A stretch of DNA of 63,709 nt from the NCBI GenBank assembly GCA_024711025.1, contig JANJTP010000017.1, positions 1 to 63,709 on the forward strand, read 5' to 3'. The notes below the pieces were generated by a model, which searched no databases, was not told the DNA's origin, and worked only from the letters and a program-made list of their open reading frames with translations. A program made the translations under genes and the position numbers. Positions 1 to 4,889 of the stretch are shown here, piece by piece. The DNA is from Solirubrobacteraceae bacterium (lineage in GTDB: Bacteria > Actinomycetota > Thermoleophilia > Solirubrobacterales > Solirubrobacteraceae). Numbering within the stretch: the stretch's first letter is position 1; each line of letters begins with the position of its first letter.

Positions 1-25
1 TGACCGGACCGATCCGCGTGCACTA

Positions 26-99
26 TCGGGGAGACAGGATTTGAACCTGCGACCTTCCGGCCCCCAGCCGGATGCGCTACCAGACTGCGCCACTCCCCG
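26..99 (-). tRNA. tRNA-Pro (anticodon GGG)
   Basis: The minus strand folds as a complete cloverleaf. A 7-bp acceptor stem (CGGGGAG with CTCCCCG) is followed by a D-arm with GG in the loop, an anticodon loop CTGGGGG giving anticodon GGG, and a T-arm with loop TTCAAAT. The discriminator is A73. CCA is not encoded. It is the first of four minus-strand tRNA genes within 3.1 kb. Confidence 0.96.
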
Positions 100-115
100 T
101 GGAGTTGCCTGCCGA

Positions 116-186
116 AGCGGGCGACGGGAATCGAACCCGCCCTAGAAGCTTGGAAGGCTTCTGTGCAACCACAACACTTCGCCCGC
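116..186 (-). tRNA. tRNA-Gly (anticodon UCC)
   Basis: Acceptor GCGGGCG pairs with CGCCCGC. The anticodon stem GAAGC/GCTTC encloses loop CTTCCAA (anticodon UCC). The T-loop is TTCGATT and the discriminator T73 is followed by no CCA. It lies 16 bp from the tRNA-Pro gene on the same strand, so the two may share a transcript. Confidence 0.95.
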
Positions 187-400
187 CAGCGCAGCGAAGG
201 GTATCGCGCGGAGTCCGGTCGGTGGCCGCTCGTCCATCGGGATCCCGAAAAGGCGGCCTCATCGCGCCTCGCCGGCGCCGTCGCCGTTCAGCCGCCGGAC
301 CGCCGCCGACCCTCGACCGCAATCTCCTGGGCCGGTGCGCGGCACCGGCCGCCGGCGTTGTCGATGAGCACATCGAGGCGCCCGTGATCGGCGATTGCCC

Positions 401-560
401 GCTCTCCGGGCGGGGCCGCCTGGTCCGGATCGGCTCTCCGGGCGCGACCGCCCGGTCCGGATCGGCTCTCCGGGCGCGGCGGCCCGGTCCGGATCCGCTC
501 TCCGGGCGCGACCGCCCGGTCCGGATCGGCTCTCCGGGCGCGGCGGCCCGAACCGGATCG
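401..560. repeat. Tandem array, 32-bp unit, five copies
   Basis: The word GCTCTCCGGG recurs at 401, 433, 465, 497 and 529, an exact 32-bp period. Each unit also carries a near-palindrome of the type GGTCCGGATC. Copies alternate between cgcgaccg and cgcggcgg at their 3' side, suggesting that a 64-bp dimer was duplicated. The array fills most of the 430-bp gap between tRNA-Gly and tRNA-Trp. There are no unique spacers, so it is not CRISPR, and no convincing gene is seen in the gap. Confidence 0.9.
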
Positions 561-616
561 CGCGTCCCCGAAGGGGACCGTGTAGCCGGAGTCGACCTAC
601 CTGCGCGGCGCGCCAG

Positions 617-688
617 CGGGGGAGCCGGGATTCGAACCCGGATTCACGGTTTTGGAGACCGCGCGCATAGCCATTAACTCACTCCCCC
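617..688 (-). tRNA. tRNA-Trp (anticodon CCA), weak D-stem
   Basis: Acceptor GGGGGAG pairs fully with CTCCCCC. The anticodon loop CTCCAAA gives CCA, the T-arm CCGGG/CCCGG is perfect, and the discriminator is G73 as is usual for bacterial tRNA-Trp. The D-arm (nt 10-25) keeps A14, G18, G19 and A21. Only two of the four D-stem positions pair, one as G-U, and position 1 is G where many bacterial tRNA-Trp have A. It is either a divergent functional tRNA-Trp or a decaying extra copy. Confidence 0.78.
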
Positions 689-774
689 GGGGAGCGGACC
701 GCCATGGTACCGAGCGGCTCGCGCGGCCCCGCTCTCGCTGGTCCAACGACCGGCGCGCCCGCCCCGCTGCGATC

Positions 775-817
775 GTGGCTGCAGAAGCTCAGGTATGCGC
801 CTGGTTTCTGCAGCCGC
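775..817. repeat. 43-nt hairpin element, copy 1
   Basis: Arms GGCTGCAGAA (777-786) and TTCTGCAGCC (806-815) are perfect inverted repeats around a 19-nt loop beginning GCTCAGGTATG. A second copy with the same arms, loop length and loop start lies at 3833-3875. This copy is downstream of the MFS gene, between it and tRNA-Trp. It could be a transcription terminator, a REP-like mobile palindrome or a structured RNA. Confidence 0.85.
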
Positions 818-842
818 GTTCGCGAGCCCCCGGGCCGTCGCG

Positions 843-2721
<1,879 letters not shown>

Positions 2722-2780
2722 TCACGGGGCTGGGACGAGCGACGCCCCATGCGAGCAGAGCCGCGGGAGTGCCACCGCGA

Positions 2781-3000
2781 CGCGGGCGTAGGGACTCGAA
2801 CGCGGGCGTAGGGACTCGAATGCGAGCGGAGGGAGTCGAACGCGGGTGTAGGGACTCGAACGCGGGCGTAGGGACTTGAATGCGGGCGTAGGGACTCGAA
2901 TGCGGGCGTAGGGACTCGAATGCGGGCGTAGGGACTCGAATGCGGGCGTAGGGACTCGAATGCGGGCGTAGGGACTCGAACGCGGGCGTAGGGACTCGAA
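2781..3000 (-). repeat. Tandem array of 11 copies of the tRNA-Leu 3' end (20-bp unit)
   Basis: Directly beyond the discriminator base of the tRNA-Leu gene, the minus strand repeats TTCGAGTCCCTACGCCCGCA and close variants eleven times with an exact 20-bp period. The unit equals nt 54-73 of the tRNA (T-loop, 3' T-stem, 3' acceptor strand, discriminator). Ten of eleven copies have A at the position of tRNA C65; the copy at 2821-2840 keeps C. Five copies have G in place of discriminator A. No spacers, integrase or transposase are nearby. Confidence 0.97.
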
Positions 3001-3082
3001 TGCGGGCGGAGGGACTCGAACCCCCACGGCCAAGGCCACCGGCTCCTAAGGCCGGCGCGTCTACCGGTTCCGCCACGCCCGC
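3001..3082 (-). tRNA. tRNA-Leu (anticodon UAG)
   Basis: A class II tRNA of 82 nt with a long variable arm. Acceptor GCGGGCG pairs with CGCCCGC, and the anticodon stem CCGGC/GCCGG encloses loop CTTAGGA (UAG). The T-loop is TTCGAGT and the discriminator is A73, with no encoded CCA. Its last 20 nt are the template of the adjacent 11-copy array. Confidence 0.96.
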
Positions 3083-3119
3083 TCGAGCGCCCAGCCTAGG
3101 GCCCCGCGCGGTGCGGGGT

Positions 3120-3226
3120 CGGCGATCGCCCGGACCGGATCGTCAGGGACTGCCTGTGAGGTGTCGGCCTCGGGGGATGCACCGGGCACCGGCGATCGTC
3201 CGGACCGGATCGTCAGGGACTGCCTG
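3120..3226. repeat. 37-bp direct repeat, two copies
   Basis: The segments 3120-3156 and 3190-3226 match except at one position (both contain GGACCGGATCGTCAGGGACT) and lie 70 bp apart. They occupy the upstream region of the membrane protein starting at 3259. The shared GGACCGGATCG core resembles the GGTCCGGATCGG core of the array at 401-560. A double operator or a simple local duplication are both possible. Confidence 0.85.
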
Positions 3227-3258
3227 CCGGGGCCCCGGCGCGGTAGTCTCGCGCCCCG

Positions 3259-3750
3259 ATGCGCGCCGTCCGCGAGGGCCAGCCGATCGTCGAGCACCCC
3301 AATCGCGACAAGCCGTCGAGCAAGGTGGTGCGGGTCGCCGTGATCACGCTGCTGGTCGCCTCGGCCGCGCTGATCGCGGTGATCCTCGTCGGCGGCTGGA
3401 GCGTGCGCCAGGGAATGACGCTCCCATCGCTCGCCTGGATCGCCGCGTACCTGGTGTTCGCCGTCTACGTGGCGCGCTGGAACCGGGGCGTGCTGCCGGT
3501 CACGGCGGCCCTCGCCGTGATCATGATGGTCTTCGGAGTCATCGCCGTACCCGCCTGGATCGACCGCGACGCGCCTGGCTTCGCCGAGCCCGCGCTGAGC
3601 TCCGGCCTGCTCGGCGCCTTGACGGCGATCCTCGTCGCCGTCCAGGCGCTGCTGGCGGTCGTCGCGATGCACGGCTTCCACCAAGCGTGGAACGTCGAGG
3701 TCGAGGTCTGGCCCGACGAGGGGCCGCTCGCCCCGCCGCACGACGCCTAG
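3259..3750 (+). CDS. Conserved small membrane protein, unknown function
   Basis: A 163-residue protein with a short hydrophilic N-terminus (about 1-22) and four predicted membrane helices (roughly 24-46, 55-73, 77-98 and 113-135). An amphipathic tail ends WNVEVEVWPDEGPLAPPHDA. No enzymatic motif is recognisable. It stands alone between tRNA-Leu and a hairpin element, transcribed away from both. The ATG was chosen because no in-frame start lies closer to the first helix; no clear Shine-Dalgarno is seen, so translation may be leaderless. Codon bias and membrane topology support a real gene. Confidence 0.75.
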   Translation: MRAVREGQPIVEHPNRDKPSSKVVRVAVITLLVASAALIAVILVGGWSVRQGMTLPSLAWIAAYLVFAVYVARWNRGVLPVTAALAVIMMVFGVIAVPAWIDRDAPGFAEPALSSGLLGALTAILVAVQALLAVVAMHGFHQAWNVEVEVWPDEGPLAPPHDA

Positions 3751-3832
3751 CGCTGCTCCGTTTCCTGGTTGGTGGGGCCCGAGAGTCCCGTCTCCTGGCA
3801 CACCCCGAGCCGAGCGACGCGCCTCGAGGATT

Positions 3833-3875
3833 GTGGCTGCAGAAGCTCAGGTATGGGGCGTGTTTCTGCAGCCAC
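3833..3875. repeat. 43-nt hairpin element, copy 2
   Basis: Perfect 12-bp arms GTGGCTGCAGAA (3833-3844) and TTCTGCAGCCAC (3864-3875) enclose a 19-nt loop starting GCTCAGGTATG. It matches the copy at 775-817 in arm, loop length and loop start. It lies between convergent genes (3259-3750 and 3981-4889), a position typical of bidirectional terminators or REP-like palindromes. Confidence 0.88.
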
Positions 3876-3980
3876 GTTCCCGTCGCAGCGGCGACTACAC
3901 GGAGGCGGCGCGGTTCTGTCGCAGAGCGTGCGCGATCCGCGGGCGCAGCGGGCATCGCACCGGCTGACTCCTCGCCGCTC

Positions 3981-4889
3981 CTACGCCGGCGCCCGAGCTG
4001 TGCCGGCGGCCGCTTCGACAAGCCGTGCCATGACGGCCGCCATCCGCGGATCGACGTCGGGGTCGTAGTCGGCGAAGCTGGTCGCGAGGACGTCGAAGCG
4101 CCGGCCCACCGCCTCGATCGCCTCGACGACCTGGCTCACCGACAGGCCCCCCTCCGCGGTGTAGCGGCTCGCGTTCGCCTCACGGGGGTCCAGCACGTCG
4201 ACGTCGACGTGCAGGTACACGGCGTCGGTCCGCTCGGCCAGCCCGTCGAGCGCCGCGTCGAGCGCGCCGCCGAAGCCCTCCCGGGCGACGGCGGGCGGGT
4301 CGACGAGCGTCCCCAGCGGCTCGGCGTCGTAGAGGTACGGGCGCCGGTCGGCGGGTACGTAGCGCTCGTGCAGTCCGACCGTGACGATCCTCTCCTCCGG
4401 CACGACGCGGAAGCCCGGTATCTGCTCGCGCCAGGCCTTCCAGCAGCGGCCCGCGATCGTCGCCACCGGCATGCCGTCGAACAGCCCGGTGAGCGACGTC
4501 TCCGGCGTCTCGCTGTCGGGGTGGGCGTCGATCCACACGAGCCCGAAGCCCTCGCGCCGAACGCCGCTCGCGACGCCGATCGACGAGCTGCAGTTGCCGG
4601 CCAGCACGATCGGAGCGCGACCGGCGGCGCGCGCCTGCGCGACGAGCTCCGCGAGCTGGCGGTTCTGCACGAGGTGCTTGGTCATCACGTCGCCGATCGC
4701 GAGGCCCTCGTCGGGCTCGGCATCGTCCCGATCGACCCAGCGAACCTCGACGTCGCGGCCGAGCGCACGCAGCCGCGCGGCGAGGCGCTCGTCCTCCAGC
4801 AGGACGGTCGGCCCCCGCCCCATCGAGACGTTGCGCTCGCCGAGCGAGTACGGAACGCCGATCAGCGTGATGGCTGCGTCATCTCCCAT
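3981..4889 (-). CDS. Arginase/agmatinase-family ureohydrolase, atypical metal motif
   Basis: Ureohydrolases use a binuclear Mn centre to release urea from guanidino compounds such as arginine, agmatine or guanidinobutyrate. The 302 residues are typical in length. Two of the three metal motifs are intact: DAHPD (121-125) and HVDVDVLDP (227-235). The first motif, normally GGDHS, reads AGNCS (97-101), so the usual first His ligand is Cys and the Asp is Asn. The gene follows the binding-protein gene by 39 bp on the same strand and is probably cotranscribed, which suggests a substrate delivered by that transporter. Substrate cannot be read from sequence. Confidence 0.85.
   Translation of the reverse strand: MGDDAAITLIGVPYSLGERNVSMGRGPTVLLEDERLAARLRALGRDVEVRWVDRDDAEPDEGLAIGDVMTKHLVQNRQLAELVAQARAAGRAPIVLAGNCSSSIGVASGVRREGFGLVWIDAHPDSETPETSLTGLFDGMPVATIAGRCWKAWREQIPGFRVVPEERIVTVGLHERYVPADRRPYLYDAEPLGTLVDPPAVAREGFGGALDAALDGLAERTDAVYLHVDVDVLDPREANASRYTAEGGLSVSQVVEAIEAVGRRFDVLATSFADYDPDVDPRMAAVMARLVEAAAGTARAPA

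Follow-up and report, generated by a model that had tools for sequence, protein, structure and literature searches.

An eleven-copy array of the tRNA-Leu(UAG) 3' tail behind its own gene in a Solirubrobacteraceae bacterium

Results

The window, a stretch of 63,709 nucleotides from a Solirubrobacteraceae bacterium (contig JANJTP010000017.1 of assembly GCA_024711025.1), carries a tRNA-Leu(UAG) gene on its minus strand at positions 3001 to 3082 (ARAGORN; Rfam RF00005, 56.7 bits). The 3' end of this gene reads ...GGGGGTTCGAGTCCCTCCGCCCGCA, and its last 20 nucleotides, T54-A73 (TTCGAGTCCCTCCGCCCGCA, positions 3020-3001), are followed from the very next base by 11 head-to-tail copies of themselves, which occupy positions 2781 to 3000 on the same strand. 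The remaining spacer to the next gene (2641 to 2780, minus strand) starts with TCGCGG and resembles the first trailer bases (TCG...) of many homologous tRNA genes. Two further genes are mentioned for context only: an MFS transporter gene (PF07690; 976 to 2640, minus strand), which on that strand is the first gene to follow the tRNA gene, and, upstream of the tRNA gene, a divergently oriented ORF of 163 aa (3259 to 3750, plus strand), which is conserved and adjoins tRNA-Leu(UAG) in relatives too.

Alignment of all 11 units with the tail of the gene showed from one to three mismatches per unit, and counting in 20-bp steps from A73 showed that the units follow each other over 2781-3000 without a gap. 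Unit 1 differs from the tail by C65A and A73G, as do units 10 and 11, and the five consecutive units 2 to 6 are identical to each other and carry C65A only. Unit 7 carries G57A, C65A and A73G, unit 8 carries C65A, G67A and A73G, and unit 9 carries G59C and C69T while retaining C65. The C65A change is thus found in 10 of the 11 units (1-8, 10 and 11), and the mean pairwise difference between units is 1.45 per 20 nt. The original prediction, made from the letters of the sequence, had described 11 copies of the segment from T54 to the discriminator at an exact 20-bp period right behind the tRNA, ten of them sharing the change of C65 to A; the unit printout, the alignment and Tandem Repeats Finder agree with it in coordinates and description, the exception to C65A being unit 9.

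Tandem Repeats Finder reported the array at 2782-3020 with a period of 20, 11.9 copies, no indels and a score of 408, the twelfth copy of this call being the tail of tRNA-Leu(UAG) itself. Chance can be excluded as the source of the array, since it ranks third by tandem-repeat score among the 175 arrays detected in the 646 kb of the genome that were scanned; its copy number is the highest among the best 45 of these 175.

The genome is a draft of 72 contigs and short tandem repeats are prone to assembly errors, so that the true array might be shorter, longer or absent. We consider such an artefact very unlikely, given that units 1, 7, 8 and 9 carry distinct variants, that the flanks are continuous and that the longest exact self-repeat is just 83 nt, a length that could be resolved by assembler k-mers above about 84 or by longer reads.

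Other intergenic tandem arrays are present in this genome, two of them within 3 kb of the tail array. The tRNA-Trp gene is flanked by two such arrays (window 401-560 and 830-984), one palindrome-rich with five units of 32 bp and the other with 4.8 units of about 31-34 bp. Two intergenic sites (window 776-820 and 3832-3880) share a dispersed repeat whose inverted ends read GGCTGCAGAAGCTCAGGTATG...TTTCTGCAGCC, and GGCGATCGYCCGGACCGGATCGTCAGGGACTGCCTG is repeated just upstream of the tRNA-Leu gene (window 3120-3156 and 3190-3228). The tails of tRNA-Gly and tRNA-Pro were seen at two contig ends (window 26-135 and G000 contig 41:7-116); these ends are perhaps an unmerged overlap, in which case tRNA-Pro(GGG) may have been counted twice.

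We then compared the array with the rest of the genome. A search of the whole 3.14 Mb for two or more tails at a spacing of 20 bp matched this locus only, so that no tail array was found at the other tRNA genes, and the tail copies found elsewhere in the genome were just tRNA genes or matches with three mismatches at roughly control level. The search of 40 relatives with a query made of the tRNA and the array gave matches of tRNA length only. The homologous tRNA-Leu(UAG) gene was recovered in 10 of the 16 other genomes of the genus, and also in members of the family and order, and no array was found behind it in any of these 10 genus relatives or in the family and order members. Comparison of copy number, one of the checks suggested with the original prediction, therefore gave 11 extra tails here and 0 in the 10 genus relatives. 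Matches of 26 nt to the tail in genus relatives were considered as possible pieces of an array and were rejected, as they proved to be tRNA-Met genes and one tRNA-Met tail fragment.

A flexible three-copy tail pattern, searched in 399 sampled genomes of the class, matched only the locus described here and two tRNA-Ser loci in a different genus. The Leu-type tail pattern matched just this genome and G038 among the class genomes; the G038 copy agrees with the tail at 15 of 19 positions from T55, where the control reached 14 of 20 once, and is only suggestive. A two-copy pattern matched 73 of 396 genomes of the phylum, mostly in coding sequence or by chance, and among 16 suspicious loci that were fetched for inspection, one showed a clear tail duplication (tRNA-Leu(UAG) of G461) and two showed partial ones (tRNA-Val of G450 and tRNA-Gln of G021). 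The copies at tRNA-Val and tRNA-Gln speak against the idea that tail duplication is confined to class II tRNAs (Leu, Ser and E. coli Tyr). A contig scan for three T-loop motifs at spacings of 19-30 bp revealed no tail array among the matches listed (at least 119 stretches and 41 viral stretches), and in plasmid and phage searches the query was matched only in part, over up to about 30% of its length, with the best matches on its tRNA part. Searches of the open-access literature yielded no account of pure tail arrays, which does not prove that none exists.

Two observations were made in the course of these searches. The contig ends of G640 (L349 and L350) carry an array whose 21-bp unit, GGTTCGATCCCGCCCACCTCC, resembles a tRNA T-arm and acceptor tail, and no tRNA was found beside it. 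A viral contig (L372:5891-5909) contains a tRNA 3' end fragment, TTGGGTTCGAGTCCCTACGCCCGCTCCA, with no tRNA gene; this fragment is possibly an attachment site.

The closest known system is the E. coli tyrTV locus (rttR/tpr region), where tandem repeats also lie directly behind a tRNA gene and contain exact copies of its 3' end. Our measurements on E. coli MG1655 located three exact 19-nt tail copies 159, 337 and 515 bases after tyrV, with a period of 178 bp, which bears out the earlier statement that these repeats are larger and each hold 19 bp of the tRNA 3' end. The 3'-terminal 19-20 nt of the tRNA are thus present in each unit in both cases, whereas the E. coli period includes 159 bp of other sequence and the rttR RNA and the small ORF tpr are annotated there. 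The array described here has units of 20 bp made of the tail alone, with no spacer, no annotated product and no Rfam match that would indicate an RtT RNA (cmscan of positions 1-4000 and of the locus detected tRNA only). Since it contains no added sequence, it is minisatellite-like and was not classed as a tyrT-type repeat. Its units follow each other head to tail and in register, with a length within the range of about 10-100 bp typical of minisatellites (period 20, 11.9 copies, no indels), and its copy number depends on the lineage. It shares with bacterial intergenic minisatellites (VNTRs) the short head-to-tail units, the intergenic position, the restriction to a lineage and an identical recent block, and differs from them in that its unit coincides exactly with a functional segment of the tRNA and is in register with the end of the mature tRNA.

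Comparison with the duplications found in other genomes showed different unit structures. In G140 and G166, which belong to another genus of the same family, the 3' tail is also repeated behind its gene, but the gene is tRNA-Ser rather than tRNA-Leu and the unit, as in tyrT, consists of tail, trailer and a core of about 55 bp; one of these repeats has at least 2 repeats with a period of 93 bp and lies at a broken contig end. At these loci (L243/L365 in G140, L242 in G166 and L289/L366 at the start of G166 contig 46), tail and trailer (about 37 nt) are duplicated around the core containing GTGTGGCNACGCC, behind genes for tRNA-Ser(UGA), (GCU) and (CGA), an anatomy like that of E. coli tyrT. The duplication in G461 (L357:1524-1660) concerns the same isoacceptor and was also made in place, but consists of one extra copy with a period of about 26, including six trailer bases.

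Discussion

The array is real, rare, lineage-specific and made of a tRNA tail, and was found in this genome alone among the hundreds checked. We consider it highly probable that it is a minisatellite born from the tRNA tail in this lineage, with slippage as its most likely origin. In homologous tRNA genes the base after A73 is mostly T, often within TCG, whereas A73 is followed here by unit 1 and the sequence TCGCGG comes after unit 11. The trailer start seen in relatives is therefore preserved behind the last unit, which puts the array exactly at the junction of the mature tRNA and the old trailer, as fits an in-place tandem duplication of the tail.

We infer three steps. A tandem duplication of T54-A73 would first have placed an additional tail behind A73 and ahead of the old trailer. 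One tail copy would then have acquired C65A, and the 20-bp repeats, by now identical, would have grown to 11 copies through slippage or unequal recombination between one another. The first duplication was no perfect microhomology slip, since the TCG of the trailer in relatives matches T55-G57 at a distance of 19 bp and not 20; the later steps would require just the 20-bp repeats themselves. The replication slippage or tandem expansion put forward in the original prediction is thus supported, and its view that the array grew from a variant copy, not repeatedly from the tRNA, is a fair reading of C65A in ten of the 11 units, although unit 9, which keeps C65, allows the order of events to be only partly resolved. 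Comparison of the identical units 2-6 with the more varied distal part suggests a late expansion near the tRNA, the block of units 2-6 being the probable product of the most recent event. The units differ by up to several bases, which indicates that the array has persisted long enough to diverge and is more than a momentary accident.

Transfer RNA 3' ends are classical targets of integrases, and the segment between tRNA-Leu(UAG) and tRNA-Trp varies in gene content among relatives, the MFS gene not having been found in the loci of those examined. The units could on these grounds be att-like copies of the tRNA 3' end, left as the scar or kept as the landing pad of a tRNA-targeting integrase, but we give this only a slim chance. 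Five Phage_integrase matches were obtained, none of them on this contig, and a second tail copy bounding an insert was found neither at the distal end of the variable segment nor elsewhere, beyond other tRNAs and chance-level matches. There is also no sequence between the units, and an excisable element would need more than 20 bp. The landing site proposed earlier hence finds no support.

A role of the array as RNA was also considered. It follows the tRNA gene directly on the same strand, no terminator-like site was found between the two, and passages in PMC2965389 and PMC4986893, which cite Bosl and Kersten 1991, state that rtT RNA is freed from the tail-bearing repeats of E. coli tyrT during tRNA processing. 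Co-transcribed tails might divert tRNA 3'-processing enzymes as decoys or give rise to small RNAs, but this appears highly improbable. The array is not conserved among relatives, Rfam models matched only the tRNA (cmscan at gathering score for window 1-4000, and with E up to 0.5 for the locus), and neither DNA strand of the array folds better than shuffled sequences. Each unit holds only the 3' strands of the T-stem and acceptor stem, so that without the 5' strands it cannot build a T-arm or acceptor stem, and the T-loop/acceptor mimics of the original prediction are not borne out. In a crude RNA model, the extra tails compete with the real tRNA and pull the 5' acceptor strand off its proper partner, which looks like a cost; addition of one unit increased the gap between the best fold and the cloverleaf from 3.6 to 12.9 kcal/mol, a weak indication as folding of unmodified RNA misses the cloverleaf even when no unit is attached to the tRNA. 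Any effect of a full-length transcript on the tRNA would be expected to be a hindrance. That the array tunes expression of the MFS gene as a repeat of variable number in its leader is barely credible, for although the MFS start follows 140 bp downstream on the same strand, the array adjoins the tRNA and not that start, and neither promoter- nor terminator-like sites were found at the locus by scans that, for sigma-70 promoters, are weak for this organism.

A function of the array is therefore unlikely, and the tail-born minisatellite is probably neutral. Alternatively, it is perhaps mildly costly and tolerated because tRNA-Leu(UAG) reads the rare CUA codon: the tRNA gene may tolerate the array since CUA is absent from the 163 Leu codons of four neighbouring ORFs and genes for Leu(CAG) and Leu(GAG) tRNAs are present.

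The single or degenerate tail duplications behind other tRNAs indicate that the first step, duplication of the tail, recurs. A broader idea, which we regard as doubtful, is that tRNA tails from T54 to the discriminator are a recurrently duplication-prone segment in bacteria, and that one origin, linked to the tRNA gene itself, underlies both pure tail arrays like the present one and tyrT-type repeats. Trouble between replication and transcription, or a structure-dependent template switch at the T-arm, would be examples of such an origin.

The array gives no indication of a new functional system. Of the pure tRNA-tail arrays met in this analysis it is the longest, and it illustrates that a tRNA trailer can become a minisatellite, apparently without destruction of the tRNA gene. 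To our knowledge, the beginnings of tyrT-type repeats are unclear; together with the tail duplications behind other tRNA genes, the array offers a possible origin for them.
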